From: Bradyrhizobium sp. 170
GTDB taxonomy: Bacteria; Pseudomonadota; Alphaproteobacteria; Rhizobiales; Xanthobacteraceae
DNA length: 64,000 nt
Assembly: GCF_023101085.1 (NCBI RefSeq)
Contig: NZ_CP064703.1
Location: forward strand, 7,998,001 to 8,062,000
Direction of reading: 5' to 3'
Both the position numbers and the translations under genes were made by a program. The notes beneath the pieces are model-generated. The model made no database searches and had not been told where the DNA came from. It saw nothing but the letters and a program-made list of their open reading frames with translations. Of this stretch, positions 26,377 through 52,551 are shown piece after piece. Each line of letters opens with the position of its first letter. Position 1 is the first letter of the stretch.

Positions 26377-27324
26377 ATGAGTAACAATTCGCAAGTCCCG
26401 TGGCCGGAGTTGCCGACCGCGGCGTGGCGTGACACCTGTGTGACGCTGCAGCTCTGGACCCAGATCGTCGGCAAGATCCGGCTGACCAAATCGCCCTGGC
26501 TCAATCATTCCTGGCATGTGACGCTCTACGTCACGCCGCGCGGATTGACGACGTCGCCGGTCCCCGACGGCGCGCGAACGTTCCAGATCGACTTCGATTT
26601 CATTGACCACACGCTGCGCATTTCAACCAGCGACGGCTCGCTGGAGCAATTTACGCTAGCAGGACATTCGGTCGCCAGCTTCTACGTCGCCACGATGGCA
26701 GCGCTTGCCGAACTCGGCATTGCCGTTGCCATCGACGAGATGCCGAACGAATTGCCGGAGCCGGTGCGCTTTTCAGAGGACACCAAGCACGCTTCCTACG
26801 ATCCCGATGCTGTCGGGTGCTTCCTGCAAATTCTCGTCAACTGCGACCGCGTCTTCAAGCAATTCCGAACCGGCTTCCTCGGCAAGGCCAGCCCGGTGCA
26901 TTTCTTCTGGGGCAGTTTCGATCTCGCGGTGACGCGCTTCTCGGGCCGCCGCGCCCCGCGCCATCCCGGCGGCGTGCCGAACCTGCCCGATGCGGTCGCA
27001 CATGAAGCCTATTCACACGAAGTCAGCAGCGCCGGCTTCTGGCCGGGCGGCGGCGCGATCGATTATCCTGCGTTCTATTCGTATGCCTATCCCGAGCCAC
27101 CGGGTTTCCGCGCAGCGAAGGTGCGACCGAATGCGGCCTTCTTCAGTGAAGCGCTGGGCGAATTCATCCTGCCCTACGATGCCGTGCGAACGGCAACCGA
27201 TCCCGACAAGGCGCTGCTCGATTTCCTGCAAAGCACCTATGAGGCCGCGGCAATATCGGCAAAGTGGGATCGCGACGCGCTGGAGTGCGATCCTGGCCGA
27301 CCGGCCGTAGTGCGGCGGGTTTAA
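26377..27324 (+). CDS. DUF5996 family protein
   Basis: 315 residues. WPELPTAAWRDTCVTLQLWTQIVGKIRL and NHSWHVTLYVTPRGLTTSPVP are the family's hallmark opening, with SPVHFFWGSFDLAVTRFSGRRAP and EFILPYDAVRTATDPDKALLDFLQSTYEAAA later. The biochemical role of DUF5996 is unknown; it is a soluble cytoplasmic protein by appearance. It is monocistronic. Confidence 0.85.
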   Translation: MSNNSQVPWPELPTAAWRDTCVTLQLWTQIVGKIRLTKSPWLNHSWHVTLYVTPRGLTTSPVPDGARTFQIDFDFIDHTLRISTSDGSLEQFTLAGHSVASFYVATMAALAELGIAVAIDEMPNELPEPVRFSEDTKHASYDPDAVGCFLQILVNCDRVFKQFRTGFLGKASPVHFFWGSFDLAVTRFSGRRAPRHPGGVPNLPDAVAHEAYSHEVSSAGFWPGGGAIDYPAFYSYAYPEPPGFRAAKVRPNAAFFSEALGEFILPYDAVRTATDPDKALLDFLQSTYEAAAISAKWDRDALECDPGRPAVVRRV

Positions 27325-46694: not shown

Positions 46695-47162
46695 ATGAAG
46701 GCGATACCCCGCTCCTGGCGATACCTCATGACGCCGCTGGCTTTCGCCGGCATGTTGAGCATCGGCTCCGCTGCGGAACTCAATCCGGCCGCCGTCATCT
46801 ACAAACTGCCGGACCAGATTCCCTGGGGTCCGGTCAATGCTGCCGGCGCGCAAAGCGCTGTTGTCGTAGGCGATCCGGCCAAGCCCGGCTTCTACATGGT
46901 CTACAACAAATGGACCAAGGGCAATCATTTCAGCCGCCCGCACTTCCATCCCAACGATCGCTACATCGTCGTGCTGCAGGGCACGTGGTGGGTCGGCTCG
47001 GGGCCGAAATTCGATCCGGCCAACACGACGCCGATGCCGGCCGGCAGCTTTGTCACCCATTTCGCCAAGCAGGTGCATTGGGACGGCGCCAAGGATGAGG
47101 ACGCCGTTCTGCTGATCATCGGCGAAGGCCCGGCGACCTCAACGGCGGCGGAAGAGAAATGA
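46695..47162 (+). CDS. Secreted cupin-domain protein
   Basis: 155 residues with a signal peptide (cleavage near GSAAE). The cupin core has HFSRPHFHPNDRYIVVLQGTWWVGSG, with metal-type His residues, and later SFVTHFAKQVHWDG. Role unknown. Its last 38 coding bases recur at 51772-51809, beyond the four-gene insert; this copy is the one joined to a full gene. GGGAGGA precedes the ATG. Confidence 0.85.
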   Translation: MKAIPRSWRYLMTPLAFAGMLSIGSAAELNPAAVIYKLPDQIPWGPVNAAGAQSAVVVGDPAKPGFYMVYNKWTKGNHFSRPHFHPNDRYIVVLQGTWWVGSGPKFDPANTTPMPAGSFVTHFAKQVHWDGAKDEDAVLLIIGEGPATSTAAEEK

Positions 47163-47172
47163 CCCCGGCGCA
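47114..47172 (+). repeat. Direct repeat, left copy (3' end of the cupin gene)
   Basis: Bases 47121-47158 match 51772-51809 at 37 of 38 positions in the same orientation. Flanking similarity extends to roughly 47114-47172. It forms the left border of the low-GC insert. Confidence 0.85.
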
Positions 47173-47279
47173 GCCAGTCTATTCCTGCAACTAGTTTCCA
47201 CGGCTCTTCACATGCTGCTTCAATGCAGTCTGCGGGCCCGCGAACAGACAGGTCAGGGTCAGGAGCGACGCGGCTTCGA

Positions 47280-48140
47280 CTACGCGGGCCGGAACACAAT
47301 GCCCAGCGAATCGAAAAGGTTCAGTGGCACGACCATTCTCTCAAGCATGGGCAGTTGCATCTTTCGAACTATCGGCAAATAAGCTCCAAGACGCTGGCTC
47401 AGATAATCGGCAGTGAAGTACCAGGACGGGCGAAAAATGGCGATGGGCTCCAGACCTGCGTGCCGCAACGCCGCCAAAAGTGTCTCCCGCTCAAAATAGC
47501 ATATGTGGGCCATACGATAGTGCCACCAGTGCTTACCCATGGCTCGAGCAGCCACTGACGCCACGTCGGGGGTGATAACAAGTCCTGTACCGTCTGGCGC
47601 CAGCACGGTGCGCGCCTGCACAAGCAACTCGATGGGATCAGAAACGTGCTCGATGACGTCCACAAGGGTGACCACGTCATAGGGTCCGGCAATCCCCTCG
47701 TTAGGCAGAACACCCGCCTGTATCTTCAGACCGTGAGCCGCCGCGCTCCGAACCATCCACTCACTAGGCTCTATCCCTTCGGCGCGATATCCCAAGCGGG
47801 TCGCGACTTCGACCAAAATTCCGCTGCCGGCACCAATATCCAGCAAACGACCGTCAGGACGATAACGACGTACCAACTGGAGGAGACGTTCGGCTTGTAA
47901 GGAGCGCGGCGCACGGCTAGCTTCATAACCTGGGTCGTCCATCGCCTGATAAAACGACAGGACGTCGGAGAAATCCGAACACTGGCGAAAGCCGCAAGCA
48001 GTGCATTGGTATATCGCTGCGCACTGACCATAGTTCGCGTCGGTAACGCGGAACGCGGCGGCGTCGACGGTCGATGGAACGTCAGCCGCCTTCACGCAGG
48101 TCAGCTTGACTTCGCCGCACAGCCAACAATTCTTTTTCAT
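47280..48140 (-). CDS. Methyltransferase with N-terminal zinc finger
   Basis: 286 residues. The N-terminus carries CWLCG and CTACGFRQC, two CxxC pairs likely to bind zinc, as in many sugar C- or O-methyltransferases. The class I SAM domain (about 75-230) shows LLDIGAGSGILVEVA, AEGIEPSEWMV, YDVVTLVDVIEHVSDP and LVITPD. It is divergent from the membrane glycosyltransferase, 245 bases away. It probably modifies the sugar or lipid made by the cassette. Lower GC than the surrounding locus suggests transfer. Confidence 0.85.
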   Translation of the reverse strand: MKKNCWLCGEVKLTCVKAADVPSTVDAAAFRVTDANYGQCAAIYQCTACGFRQCSDFSDVLSFYQAMDDPGYEASRAPRSLQAERLLQLVRRYRPDGRLLDIGAGSGILVEVATRLGYRAEGIEPSEWMVRSAAAHGLKIQAGVLPNEGIAGPYDVVTLVDVIEHVSDPIELLVQARTVLAPDGTGLVITPDVASVAARAMGKHWWHYRMAHICYFERETLLAALRHAGLEPIAIFRPSWYFTADYLSQRLGAYLPIVRKMQLPMLERMVVPLNLFDSLGIVFRPA

Positions 48141-48385
48141 TCAGCACTCTCGCGTTGCAAGCTAAATCTACAATCTTAAGTTTCGTTTAACGCTGATACA
48201 TTTATTGTGCTGGCGGGCGTACCGTTCCGAGAGTCTTATTGTCGGGCTGGTCACGTTGACCGCGCTATATATCCAAAAAATAGCGACAGCATCGCAACGA
48301 TGAGCAGGCAGTCAACACGCATGAATTTTCGACGCCTGATGTTGCCTTGAATTAATTGGGGTGGCGCTTGAAAAGCGGGGTTACG

Positions 48386-50023
48386 GTGGCACAAGTCTCT
48401 GTCAGCACGAAAGCGGGCGCGGGCGAATCCGGAATAACGGCTCAGTTGCTTGGCTATGCGGTCACCTGGATACTGCCGGTTCTGGCGGGCCTGCTGATTA
48501 TTTGGCTGGCGCTAAGTCTCACAGACTTCTACTACCCGCACGCTTGGGTTAGTGCGCATATAGCGACAATCGCGCATTCCTTTGCCACCCACGGAATCAT
48601 TGATCTTCACGGCATACCAATCGAGAACTTTGATCCCTTAACGACCCAGCCGGACAATTATCTGCATTGGCCGCCGTTCTTCTACTACGTCTTGAGTCTG
48701 GTTCTGCGCGCATTTCCGGATTCCATTCGAGCGATGCACCTCTTTATGGCGGTCATCGCCATCGCCAACGCTTATCTGATGTGGAACATCGCATCGATGT
48801 ACTTCAAGCCCAGAGCGGCAATCGTTTGCGGCAGCGCTTTCCTGCTCATGCCCGCCACGCTCCGGTACGGCTTGATTCTTCTGCCGGCCAACCTGGCCAT
48901 GCTGGGAGTTTCGTTGGCGCTGTTGTTTATGTTGCGTTACCTGCAAAGTGCCGATGCCGGACGCGAAAGGTTGCTGGATCTCGGACTCAGTGCGCTCGTC
49001 TTTTTTCTTGCTTGTGTTGCCTCCTGGGAGCCGTTTCTGGCGCTGCCTGGATTGCTGCTCGCGTACGTCTTCAATCGCCGATCGGAGATTTTGAAGACGT
49101 GCTTTTGTTGGGCAATCGCGGCAATCGCAGCAGGCGCGAGTACATTAGCCATCTATGCCTTGTCCGACCCCACGTTCTTATCGGACTTGTGGTCGATCTT
49201 CACGTTTCGGCTGGGGCTGACCCAGTATTTGCCCATGTCGGCGCGGGTTCACCCCGTAGAACGGCAGCTGGAAACCATAGACAGCCTCAACGTATTTTCC
49301 TCGGCACCTCATTTTTTTGAAGCTTACGTCATACGTACGCAGTTGTTCTGCGGATCGCTCGGTATCGTCGGCATCTTTGCGCTAGTTTTAACCGCGCTCC
49401 GCCGCCGTCGGAGCTTTCCCAACAACTCTTTCGATGCGGTCCTGCTACCGCTCTGCACAGTCTGGTTGGGGTGGGCGGCCATCATGCAGGGGCATTACAT
49501 CATACACGAATATCAGATGATCCTCGCCAGCCCCATACTCGCCATCGGCGTGGCCTGCCTCTATTCGCTGCTTGACGACATCCCTCTGGCTACGCGGGAT
49601 TCCTGGCTGCGCGAAAATCTCGCAATGCTGACCAACCTTGCCTTACCCTGCGCGTTGCTTTTTTTGGGCATTTCCGCGGTGGCCATCACTGTTCGTGGCG
49701 ACGGCGAGGCATGGCACCTTGCAAATTTTGGCCGCCGTATCAAGGCTGAGGTTCCGACAGGTGCGATGGTCGTCACAAATGAGATGAGCATGGTGCAGAC
49801 CTATTACGCGGAGCGGCACGTCATACGCGGCGTTCCGGACGGAGCCCATTTGGAGAGCAAGCTGGGAATGATCCAGGACATATGTCCCGGTTGTGCACTT
49901 TATCTCGCTGTGCGCCGCCAGAGCGCGCAGAAATTTCGCGACGCGCTCGATCGCCTGCAGCCGGTCTTTGAGGATGATAACTTCATTATCAAGAAAATCA
50001 GTCGCGCTGAACACAGCCATTAG
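48386..50023 (+). CDS. GT-C-like membrane glycosyltransferase (ArnT/PMT-like)
   Basis: 545 residues with about 11 membrane helices and a C-terminal periplasmic domain. After the first helix comes FYYPHAWVSAHIATIAHSFATHG, then NFDPLTTQPDNYLHWPPFFYY, the layout of GT-C enzymes with an acidic first extracellular loop. These use polyprenyl-phosphate sugars as donors on the periplasmic side. GTG 48386 with GGGG six bases upstream is chosen; an in-frame TTG at 48356 is an alternative. The prenyltransferase gene follows 72 bases later, so the donor may be made next door. Confidence 0.75.
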   Translation: MAQVSVSTKAGAGESGITAQLLGYAVTWILPVLAGLLIIWLALSLTDFYYPHAWVSAHIATIAHSFATHGIIDLHGIPIENFDPLTTQPDNYLHWPPFFYYVLSLVLRAFPDSIRAMHLFMAVIAIANAYLMWNIASMYFKPRAAIVCGSAFLLMPATLRYGLILLPANLAMLGVSLALLFMLRYLQSADAGRERLLDLGLSALVFFLACVASWEPFLALPGLLLAYVFNRRSEILKTCFCWAIAAIAAGASTLAIYALSDPTFLSDLWSIFTFRLGLTQYLPMSARVHPVERQLETIDSLNVFSSAPHFFEAYVIRTQLFCGSLGIVGIFALVLTALRRRRSFPNNSFDAVLLPLCTVWLGWAAIMQGHYIIHEYQMILASPILAIGVACLYSLLDDIPLATRDSWLRENLAMLTNLALPCALLFLGISAVAITVRGDGEAWHLANFGRRIKAEVPTGAMVVTNEMSMVQTYYAERHVIRGVPDGAHLESKLGMIQDICPGCALYLAVRRQSAQKFRDALDRLQPVFEDDNFIIKKISRAEHSH

Positions 50024-50095
50024 TCAGCGTGCTGCGGCCTGAAACTTCCGACCGCTGGCGCGTCAAGGAAACCAAGATTTGCGTGGTGTTATTCC

Positions 50096-51076
50096 ATGAA
50101 TAAGAACACCGGCGTTGCCGCAATGAAGTTGCAAGAAACTGCTTTGGCCTACCTGGCCATGGCTCGCCTGGACCACAGCACCAAGCACATCTTCATTGTT
50201 CCCGGTATCATGCTGGCCTATCTGCTTCGGGGCGTTCATACAGATTTGTTGGGAGTTTCCGTCGCGCTCGGCTTGATGACAGCGGTATGCGTTGCGTCGG
50301 CCAACTACGTCATCAACGAATGGCTCGATCGGGATTTCGACAAGTTCCATCCGACGAAGGTCCGGCGATCTGCGGTGCAGAACCAATTGGAACGAAACAT
50401 CGTTCTGGTTGAATGGGCCGCCTTTCTTGGCGTCGGGCTGGCTTGCGCGTTTGCGAACAGCAAGTCGATGTTCATCATTGCGAGCATCTTCGCTCTGCAA
50501 GGCGTCGTCTACAACGTTCCTCCGCTCCGGACGAAGGACAGGGCGTATCTCGACGTAATCTCCGAATCCATCAACAATCCTCTACGATTGATGATCGGAT
50601 GGGCAATGGTGGACCCGACGACGTTACCACCCTCTTCAGTCATCCTGACGTATTGGGCAGGCGGTGCATTTCTGATGGCGGCGAAGCGGCTTTCAGAATT
50701 CCGCGAAATTGTGGCGTCGCACGGCAGAGAACTATTGGAACGATACAGAGCCAGCTTTATCAGCTACTCGGAGACGTCGCTCGCCGTCTCATGCCTGGTT
50801 TACGCGCTTTGTTCTGTCTTCTTCCTGGCGGTCTTTCTCATCAAGTACCGGATCGAATATATACTGACGGTACCGATCGTCATCGCGCTGTTCGCGAAAT
50901 ACCTCGCCCTTTCGATGGAACCAGGATCGTCGGCACAGAAACCAGAAAAATTGTTCAAGGAAAGCGGTCTGATCGTTTTGGTTGTCTGGTTAACCGCGCT
51001 CTTTTCGGTCACGACATTCACCAACATTCCTGAGCTCGAAGTTTTCACGACTCAACGGTATATCAGAGTTCAGTAA
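50096..51076 (+). CDS. UbiA-family prenyltransferase (DPPR-synthase-like)
   Basis: 326 residues with eight to nine membrane helices. The first aspartate motif is NYVINEWLDRDFDKFHPTK, with the HPTK end shared by decaprenyl-phosphate phosphoribosyltransferases (mycobacterial Rv3806c, Azorhizobium NoeC). A second conserved region is YNVPPLRTKDRAYLDVISESINNPLRL. It may join phosphoribosyl pyrophosphate to decaprenyl or undecaprenyl phosphate. The HAD gene begins within its stop codon (shared A at 51076), a tight pairing; in other bacteria UbiA and HAD are found fused. Confidence 0.85.
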   Translation: MNKNTGVAAMKLQETALAYLAMARLDHSTKHIFIVPGIMLAYLLRGVHTDLLGVSVALGLMTAVCVASANYVINEWLDRDFDKFHPTKVRRSAVQNQLERNIVLVEWAAFLGVGLACAFANSKSMFIIASIFALQGVVYNVPPLRTKDRAYLDVISESINNPLRLMIGWAMVDPTTLPPSSVILTYWAGGAFLMAAKRLSEFREIVASHGRELLERYRASFISYSETSLAVSCLVYALCSVFFLAVFLIKYRIEYILTVPIVIALFAKYLALSMEPGSSAQKPEKLFKESGLIVLVVWLTALFSVTTFTNIPELEVFTTQRYIRVQ

Positions 51077-51762
51077 TGCCGTTGGACTGGGATAACGTGC
51101 ATTTTGTCGTGTTCGATGTAGATGGGACGCTCTACCGACAACGCCCATTACGGATCAGGATGACGCGGGACATCCTGCTCTATACGCTTCTGAAACGGGA
51201 CCTGAACGTTATTGCCGTGCTCGCCGAGTATCGCCGTATTCGAGAGCGGCTGGGTGATGAGCAGGTCATCGATTTCGAACGTGCGTTGATCACGCAGACA
51301 GCGGCAGCGACAGCCAATTCTCCGGATAGAGTGCGTTCTATCGTGTCCGAGTGGATTGAACGGAGACCACTTGGATATCTCGCCGCCTGTCGCCATCCAG
51401 GTCTGTCCCAACTGTTTGCCGGTTTGCGGCGCAGTGGCAAATCCATCGGCATCCTCTCGGACTATCCGGCGGAAGCGAAGCTCGAAGCGCTAGGTTTATC
51501 CGCAGATCACATCGTATATGCCGGAGACGAGAGTATCGGATTACTAAAGCCACATCCCCGAGGTCTTGAGTCGCTGATCGCCGCCGCGGGCGTGACGCCA
51601 CACGAAACCGTGGTCATCGGGGACCGCGTAGATCGCGATGGGCTCGTCGCGCGACGGGCCGGAGCCCATGCCTTGATCAGGTCTTCAAAGCCCATTGAGG
51701 GATGGCAAACCTTCGCCAGGTTTGACGATGCATTGTTCACTCCCATTCTTGCATCTTCATGA
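51076..51762 (+). CDS. HAD-superfamily phosphatase
   Basis: 228 residues. The nucleophile and general acid are Asp14 and Asp16 in VVFDVDGTLY. GILSDYPAEAKLEALGL is motif II (Ser), KPHPRGLESLI motif III (Lys) and VVIGDRVDRDG motif IV. All four motifs are intact. Its coupling to the UbiA gene suggests it removes the 5-phosphate from polyprenyl-phosphoribose phosphate; this is inference. It ends two bases before the right direct repeat. Confidence 0.88.
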   Translation: MPLDWDNVHFVVFDVDGTLYRQRPLRIRMTRDILLYTLLKRDLNVIAVLAEYRRIRERLGDEQVIDFERALITQTAAATANSPDRVRSIVSEWIERRPLGYLAACRHPGLSQLFAGLRRSGKSIGILSDYPAEAKLEALGLSADHIVYAGDESIGLLKPHPRGLESLIAAAGVTPHETVVIGDRVDRDGLVARRAGAHALIRSSKPIEGWQTFARFDDALFTPILASS

Positions 51763-51764
51763 CC

Positions 51765-51823
51765 GATCATGGGCGAAGGTCCGGCGACCTCAACGGCGGC
51801 GGAAGAGAAGTAATCGCCGGCGC
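51765..51823 (+). repeat. Direct repeat, right copy (orphan cupin 3' end)
   Basis: It matches 47121-47158 over 51772-51809 with one mismatch. Here it follows the HAD gene directly and has no cupin gene in front. It even keeps an in-frame TAA at the same place as the cupin TGA. Confidence 0.85.
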
Positions 51824-51909
51824 AACGGGACCGACTTGAGATCAACGGCCGGGCAACCATTTCAGCGGCGGCGCGTTTCATGTTCCCAACCAAATCAGGG
51901 ATATGAAAC

Positions 51910-52149
51910 ATGGCTTCTGCTTCACAGATCCGGGAACACATGGACGTTATCTCGTCGGACAAGAAGACGGTCGGAAAAGTCGATCATCTGGAAGGAGCCG
52001 ACAAGATCAAGCTGACCAAACAGAGTTCGCCCGATGGCCAGCATCATCACTTTATCCCGATGTCGTGGGTCGACCACGTCGATCAGCACGTCCACCTCAA
52101 CAAATCCGGTGCGGATGTGACTTCGCACTGGCAGCATGGCCGCCAGTAA
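51910..52149 (+). CDS. DUF2171 domain protein (79 aa)
   Basis: 79 residues, almost all DUF2171: IREHMDVISSDKKTVGKVDHLEGADKIKLTK then HHHFIPMSWVDHVDQHVHLNKSGADV. The fold is thought to be PRC-barrel-like and its role is unknown. A GGGATATGAAAC leader precedes the ATG. It probably lay next to the cupin gene before the cassette entered. Confidence 0.85.
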   Translation: MASASQIREHMDVISSDKKTVGKVDHLEGADKIKLTKQSSPDGQHHHFIPMSWVDHVDQHVHLNKSGADVTSHWQHGRQ

Positions 52150-52209
52150 CCGGCTAACGCGCATTGCGCCGCGCGCGGATGCAGATATCATCTGAGATCA
52201 GGAGATAGA

Positions 52210-52551
52210 ATGCATCCGGCGGCGCGACTGCAATTCGAACGCATGATTGGCGAATATGCTCGCTGGCGTGGCGTTCCCGAAAAGGAACGATCGCCCGCCC
52301 CGGCCTGGTGGTGGGGACCGGCGATGGAGTTGCGCAACGCGCAGCAGACCCTGCCGGCGGAATGGTGCGCCGAGCTCGGTCTTCCCGATCATGCGACGTA
52401 TGCGGCGGGGGCGGAAGTCTTCTTCAAAGCCTTCGCGGAACAGACGTCGCTGCCCTGGCCTTACGATTTCCCGCGCAAGACCGAAGTTCCGGATCCGGCG
52501 GTCCGTGAGCTGCATCCGCAGCCGTCAGACGACAGCGCCTTTCAGCCCTGA
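52210..52551 (+). CDS. Hypothetical protein (113 aa)
   Basis: 113 residues, soluble, with many Trp and Pro: MIGEYARWRGVPEKERSPAPAWWWGPAMELRNAQQTLP. No family was recognised. AGGAG lies seven bases before the ATG, so expression is likely. Its 3' end overlaps the convergent GGDEF/EAL gene by 27 bases. Confidence 0.6.
   Translation: MHPAARLQFERMIGEYARWRGVPEKERSPAPAWWWGPAMELRNAQQTLPAEWCAELGLPDHATYAAGAEVFFKAFAEQTSLPWPYDFPRKTEVPDPAVRELHPQPSDDSAFQP

Follow-up and report, generated by a model that had tools for sequence, protein, structure and literature searches.

A block of four genes with low G+C content lies between a cupin-like gene and a DUF2171 gene in Bradyrhizobium sp. 170, within a 64,000-bp stretch of DNA that was analyzed as a whole and is called the window below (assembly GCF_023101085.1, contig NZ_CP064703.1, positions 7,998,001 to 8,062,000). 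Comparative analysis suggested that the locus was a chimera of two natural alleles, A and B, and one-sided recombination of allele-A donor DNA into an allele-B recipient was considered its probable, though far from certain, origin. Allele A has the order cupin, spacer A, amidohydrolase (and DUF2171), and allele B the order cupin, spacer B, DUF2171. Genomes and loci used for comparison carry G and L numbers, respectively. The features of the two sides of the block were as follows.

46695..47162, plus strand: intact cupin-like gene of 155 amino acids, the left homology anchor (open reading frame; 97% identical in L003, L004, and L005).
47114..47158, plus strand: left repeat copy, end of the intact cupin gene (repeat search).
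47163..47243, plus strand: spacer of allele A, then what is left of the 5' end of an amidohydrolase gene (83% identity with the loci of G022, E = 3e-18, and G030, E = 9e-18).
51765..51813, plus strand: orphan cupin 3' end of allele B, last 15 codons and stop (repeat search and locus alignment).
51814..51909, plus strand: allele-B spacer upstream of DUF2171 (92% to L003, 89% to L005).
51853..51877, plus strand: GCAAC-N16-CGTT motif (upstream of DUF2171 in 16 of the 17 loci scanned).
51910..52149, plus strand: DUF2171 gene, the native right neighbor (PF09939, E = 9.6e-28).

The initial annotation had reported a cupin 3' end duplicated behind a HAD gene with no cupin in front of it, and this was confirmed. 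The 45 nt at 47114-47158 recurred at 51765-51809, 4651 bp away, with 43/45 identical bases (96%, two differences), and the 38-nt core (47121-47158 against 51772-51809) had one mismatch. No full cupin gene was present upstream of the right repeat copy, the stop codon of the HAD gene being 2 bases away. A 121-base probe (47060-47180) gave two matches at E ≤ 0.001 in the 9,195,219-bp genome (40 of 64 first-look candidates scored), namely the cupin gene and the right copy; in 12 pieces of 20 kb sampled from the genome, the 45-mer aligned without gaps at 25-27 of 45 bases at best. A dispersed repeat, which the initial annotation had named as one outcome that would overturn its proposal, was rejected, since just two places genome-wide matched the cupin-end probe.

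Four open reading frames were found between the repeat copies, a methyltransferase gene on the minus strand and then genes for a PMT_2-type membrane protein, UbiA, and HAD on the plus strand, and all four were open. The block had a foreign composition, and the low G+C content and deviating base use that had been claimed for it were borne out. The G+C content of 47254-51764 was 0.554, against 0.646 and 0.633 in flanks of equal length, and the block was below all of 48 sampled 4.5-kb genome stretches (mean 0.622, standard deviation 0.022, lowest 0.569). The G+C content at third codon positions (GC3) was 0.60-0.67 in the block genes vs 0.79-0.85 in galE, the 3-keto-disaccharide hydrolase gene, the cupin gene, and the EAL gene; intermediate values were obtained for DUF2171 (0.69) and orf113 (0.71), both outside the block. 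As the initial annotation had stated, no recombinase was detected among the four genes by Pfam, and the block did not classify as an integrase-type island. Pfam also detected no replication or transfer gene in the block, and ARAGORN predicted no tRNA gene in the 64-kb window.

On the left side, the cupin gene (Cupin_7, E = 7.6e-5, under the Pfam cut-off) was followed by the start of a broken amidohydrolase gene, which went beyond what the initial annotation had noticed. The 81 bases past the left cupin stop aligned with the spacer and amidohydrolase start of the allele-A loci G022, G030, G101, L009, L011, L015, and L016 (E = 3e-18 to 8e-6). The amidohydrolase gene (Amidohydro_2 by Pfam) adjoined the cupin gene in G030, G101, L009, L011, L015, and L016, and in G022 it was preceded by a cupin remnant; several relatives have an unbroken amidohydrolase gene at this place. 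In the window, the amidohydrolase remnant began with an ATG at 47212, comprised about 10 first codons with an internal 2-base deletion, and faded by about 47243-47253. The left-side match scored 94 with G030 and 95 with G022, and the maximum of 500 shuffles each was 30. At E < 1e-3, the gene-start piece alone matched amidohydrolase loci only, besides the window's own records. Since homology extends some 80 bp beyond the left repeat, as far as the amidohydrolase start, the left joint is not at the repeat; judged from these alignments, it is in or just after the broken amidohydrolase gene.

The right side was of the B type. The orphan cupin tail showed 94, 98, 96, and 98% identity, and spacer B 93, 85, 89, and 83% identity, to L003, L004, L005, and L044, respectively. 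Apart from the window's own records, the only loci matched at E < 1e-4 by the first 39 bases of spacer B were those of G217, G207, G251, G119, and B. algeriense, and the allele-A loci and outlying B loci (G053, L013) matched just the later part of the spacer. In 18 loci, the identity of the cupin tail to the right copy was 84-98% (for G022, across 70% of its length). With tails this similar, any pairing of alleles yields such a repeat, and the repeat as aligned reads as two allelic cupin 3' ends joined, rather than as a pair of attachment sites. The motif at 51853-51877 resembles a general-stress (EcfG) promoter. A 19-base near match (17/19) was observed between mid-cupin (46919-46937) and the DUF2171 promoter region (51851-51869); short matches of a similar sort occurred in several relatives, and the pair may be due to chance or an old duplication.

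Empty sites were present in the relatives. The check that had been proposed, to look in related genomes for the cupin gene directly followed by DUF2171, gave this arrangement in the nearest loci (L003, L004, and L005) and in L044, where about 100 bp and no insert separated the cupin stop from the DUF2171 start. Empty sites were also seen in G217, G207, G251, G223, and G119, whose sites were the nearest by the EAL gene; G217 and L003 are probably one genome, as are G207 and L005. Allele B was carried by the near relatives G217, G207, B. algeriense, G119, G251, and G223. The nearest loci were taken from a cupin-protein genome scan, in which 80 named loci were kept of 118 confirmed, and kinship by the EAL gene covered all but 31 of 265 genomes (G030, G053, and G027 being among the 31 unscored).

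The contents of the site were compared in 77 distinct loci, each having both the EAL gene and a marker upstream. These loci were chosen by nearness and not at random, so that the counts are not genus frequencies: 31 had cupin and DUF2171, 19 had cupin without DUF2171, 10 had an amidohydrolase gene, 6 had DUF6492 (one locus with both), 11 had no cupin or cupin remnants only, and one, the window, had the four-gene block. The spot between cupin and DUF2171 is variable in the genus, with different genes between the same neighbors as in transfer hotspots. None of the amidohydrolase- or DUF6492-occupied loci compared had a second cupin tail. Among 148 locus records with a cupin tail, a second place for the tail was found only in the window (and its duplicate record), in G083, and in a tandem-cupin locus. 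The G083 locus (L129, 3262-4050) had two cupin 3' tails about 0.6 kb apart without a cupin gene. Immediately before each tail was a segment of roughly 103 bp that ended in CACTGTCACCGTAATT and had inverted repeats at its termini (19 nt, 100%, and 22 nt, 91% complementary); it looks as though the tail had on two occasions been carried, or abutted, by a small transposon-like element.

Integrase-type genomic islands duplicate the 3' end of their target gene. The window resembles them in that a gene 3' end is directly repeated around foreign DNA and the site of its relatives is empty, and the initial annotation had offered, as one explanation, that a site-specific element, now vanished, brought the block in at the end of the cupin gene. 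Site-specific integration there, with the integrase since lost, was nevertheless regarded as very improbable. Unlike such islands, the window has no integrase, and its four genes include no recombinase; what is homologous beyond its left repeat is the start of another, ordinary gene of the chromosome; the other occupied loci compared have no repeat around their genes; and any pairing of alleles would give such a repeat.

In the account that we prefer, the donor would have carried allele A with the block already in place of most of the amidohydrolase gene. On the left, homologous recombination near the end of the cupin gene would have joined the incoming donor chromosomal DNA to that of the recipient. 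On the right, the donor end just past the HAD stop would have been joined, with no detected homology, into the recipient cupin gene 45 bases before its stop. The outcome would be an intact cupin gene on the left, the new genes, and the tail of the recipient cupin gene as a scar before DUF2171, and such a one-sided event would be homology-facilitated illegitimate recombination. We infer from this arrangement that transfer went from an A donor into a B recipient in a single event and that the right joint was illegitimate. Of the second explanation in the initial annotation, recombination with a donor carrying a similar junction, the recombining donor comes close to this account, although the joints on the two sides seem to be of different kinds.

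The position of the allele switch was estimated from the cupin gene. In 46875-46994, the window had no differences from G217 and G030 had nine; in 46995-47114, the window was about equally near to G217 and G030 (four and three differences). The last cupin codon of the window was AAA, as in 5/7 A loci; the four aligned near-relative B loci had AAG there. These differences fit a homologous crossover probably placed within 46995-47159.

Several observations weigh against this account. No donor with the amidohydrolase remnant and the block was found in the genomes searched, and the donor state given above is a reconstructed one. Spacer A was partly unspecific, as its first 23 bases also matched the B locus G038 (87%), which has no amidohydrolase gene. 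AAA also ended the cupin gene in B loci outside the near clade (L014, L020, L063). Base 47141 (A) was B-like, being shared by 7/8 B loci and 1/7 A loci; taken at face value, it would place the left switch inside the repeat, and it would fit a crossover in the short repeat equally well. The near relative G022 carried allele A (93% over the EAL gene), so that the lineage of the window may once have been A. The right-flank tree placed the window with G053 (support 0.73) and not with G217, and the left-flank tree placed it with G217 (0.99); the trees were based on 20 loci on the right and 19 on the left (G223 was dropped for a short galE match), and several nodes had support of 0.48-0.75. In G023, which has a similar gene run, the sequence 3' of HAD was unrelated to that of the window and offered no basis for judging microhomology at the right joint.

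A B-like base within the repeat could also be explained by a single crossover, in which a circle with the block and a chromosomal piece of about 130 bp (cupin tail, spacer A, and amidohydrolase start) entered the recipient cupin tail. One crossover would give the observed repeat geometry with its spacing of 4651, the switch from B to A in the left copy could be placed inside the repeat, and reversal would release a 4,651-bp circle. This was judged unlikely. It requires a prior circle with a joint between HAD and a cupin tail, and genes for replication or transfer are missing from the block; moreover, 45 bp is short for homologous exchange. The plasmid collection gave 19 matching records (65-84%; 18 under UbiA genes and one unannotated), none covering more than 18% of the query, and a plasmid donor was likewise rejected.

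The allele-A state of G022 bears on another explanation, in which two steps took place in one lineage: in an A ancestor, the block took the place of most of the amidohydrolase gene, and an allele-B segment then replaced the right flank. The A locus sharing the base at 47141 is G022, and an A-type ancestor in the clade is therefore possible. The right flank was in addition a mosaic, with a tree unlike the left one. Over orf113, the tract 52165-52464 was 85-95% identical to G053, G030, and G223 and 68-85% identical to G217, G207, B. algeriense, G119, and G022, a pattern that appears to show a distinct patch of recombination immediately to the right of the insert; with this tract and the discordant trees, recombination was found in the flanking genes, as described for hotspots, on a descriptive comparison. 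We nevertheless considered the two-step explanation rather unlikely. The beginning of the right spacer is restricted to near relatives, six of which are B, and an illegitimate joint at 51765 would still be required.

Truncation of the cupin gene was found at other loci as well. Of 11 loci scanned, 8 had a 3' piece of an otherwise incomplete cupin gene, with differing left neighbors, and no cupin tail was detected at E = 0.05 in the other three (L181, L182, L184). The cupin gene was mostly lost and its 3' end kept in L178 (G056), L176 (G176), L180 (G206), L130 (G038), L179 (G142), and L131 (G027); G038 also kept the first cupin codons. Since cupin truncation recurs, an orphan cupin tail is a usual rearrangement scar at this place. 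The truncated cupin genes with differing left neighbors started near the palindromes GGCGCC and TGATCA (BLAST ends only), and the tail of G056 started one base from the right joint of the window. A common breakpoint at TGATCA was rejected, because, with eight remnant loci, a single coincidence such as that with G056 could well arise by chance (a rough, uncomputed estimate). A broader proposal, that the cupin 3' end is a recurrent end point of illegitimate recombination in Bradyrhizobium, where the block was captured at TGATCA and genes are gained and lost by repeated one-sided recombination without a mobile element, seemed decidedly unlikely.

The four genes of the block were annotated as follows.

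47280..48140, minus strand: class I S-adenosylmethionine methyltransferase (Methyltransf_23, E = 1.4e-27).
48380..50023, plus strand: PMT_2 or GT-C-like membrane glycosyltransferase, reading frame open from 48356 (PF13231, E = 3.4e-7; 77% in G023).
50096..51076, plus strand: UbiA prenyltransferase (PF01040, E = 3.6e-16).
51076..51762, plus strand: HAD phosphatase, its start overlapping the UbiA stop by one base (PF00702, E = 2e-17).

The methyltransferase had one other match at E ≤ 1e-40 among 265 genus genomes, in G032 (51% identical). For the GT-C-like protein, 149 relatives at E ≤ 0.001 were found among 7999 scored candidates of a large protein collection; among the 120 matches listed, the relatives were 74-98% identical and mostly from unnamed sources. 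At E = 1e-60, this gene was found only in the window's own genome in a draw of 391 genomes of the family (G023 was possibly outside the draw). At least this gene of the block is thus common in environmental sequence though rare in the genomes searched. One of them, protein P0001, was 98% identical and came from another source, which shows that the gene is real and is silent on the joints; the contig is a single one of 9.2 Mb and the four genes are open, and an assembly error or binning artefact was considered extremely unlikely.

The best NCBIfam match of UbiA was NF008977 (E = 9.5e-21), and its 74.5 bits missed the equivalog cut-off of 234; the best PDB profile match was 8j8j (E = 3.1e-10). 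By these matches, UbiA is related to decaprenyl-phosphate phosphoribosyltransferase, with membership below the cut-off. HAD adjoined UbiA in G023, G223, G115, and G032 (where HAD is split in two) and also on two plasmids of Rhizobium, in which GtrA came next. The run of PMT, UbiA, and HAD was found elsewhere only in G023, with 80% DNA identity (265 genomes, two candidates scored per genome). In G023, the run was on a different contig from the cupin gene, had neither the methyltransferase gene nor a cupin tail, and was followed by a LysR-like regulator gene (by eye); the cupin site of G023 was empty. Judged by the GT-C-like protein and by the relatives of UbiA and HAD, the most likely role of the cargo would be the synthesis or use of a pentose linked to polyprenyl phosphate for a glycan of the cell surface. 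The genes upstream of the locus included polysaccharide genes (WecG-type, GalE, acyltransferase, flippase-like, and deacetylase). A DUF5996 gene at 26377-27321 of the window (Pfam E = 5.9e-144) was unrelated to the block.

The locus was compared with known systems. The block resembles the UbiA-HAD-GtrA runs of Rhizobium plasmids (e.g., pRL10) in that UbiA is 60% identical and HAD is directly next to it; it differs in that GtrA follows there, and the window has the GT-C-like protein before UbiA and the methyltransferase in addition. For integrase-free transfer hotspots, the available part of Oliveira et al. 2017 (PMC5635113) gives double homologous recombination at both flanks as the model. As far as that part describes them, the window is like these hotspots in its variable genes between conserved neighbors, its lack of a mobility gene, and its mosaic flanks, and unlike them in that just the left joint looks homologous and a scar is present at the right. 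Homology-facilitated illegitimate recombination has been proposed for the arrays of immunity genes of the type VI secretion system of Vibrio cholerae and is, in the portion of that article available, described as much rarer than ordinary homologous recombination (PMC5361080). The window shares with these arrays, as they are presented in that portion, a conserved upstream anchor, inserted genes, and a displaced native 3' part kept downstream; in contrast to them, it keeps the last 15 cupin codons and not a whole gene. No paper on Bradyrhizobium and homology-facilitated illegitimate recombination was found in a library of open-licence PMC papers.

This locus is a readable case of the entry of chromosomal genes without a visible mobile element, in which the alleles, the broken gene, and the scar are still visible. 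Where foreign DNA lies between two copies of a gene 3' end, the copies are not necessarily attachment sites, and caution is needed when such repeats are interpreted. The gene capture seen here is of an ordinary kind; what is unusual is how well its history can be read.

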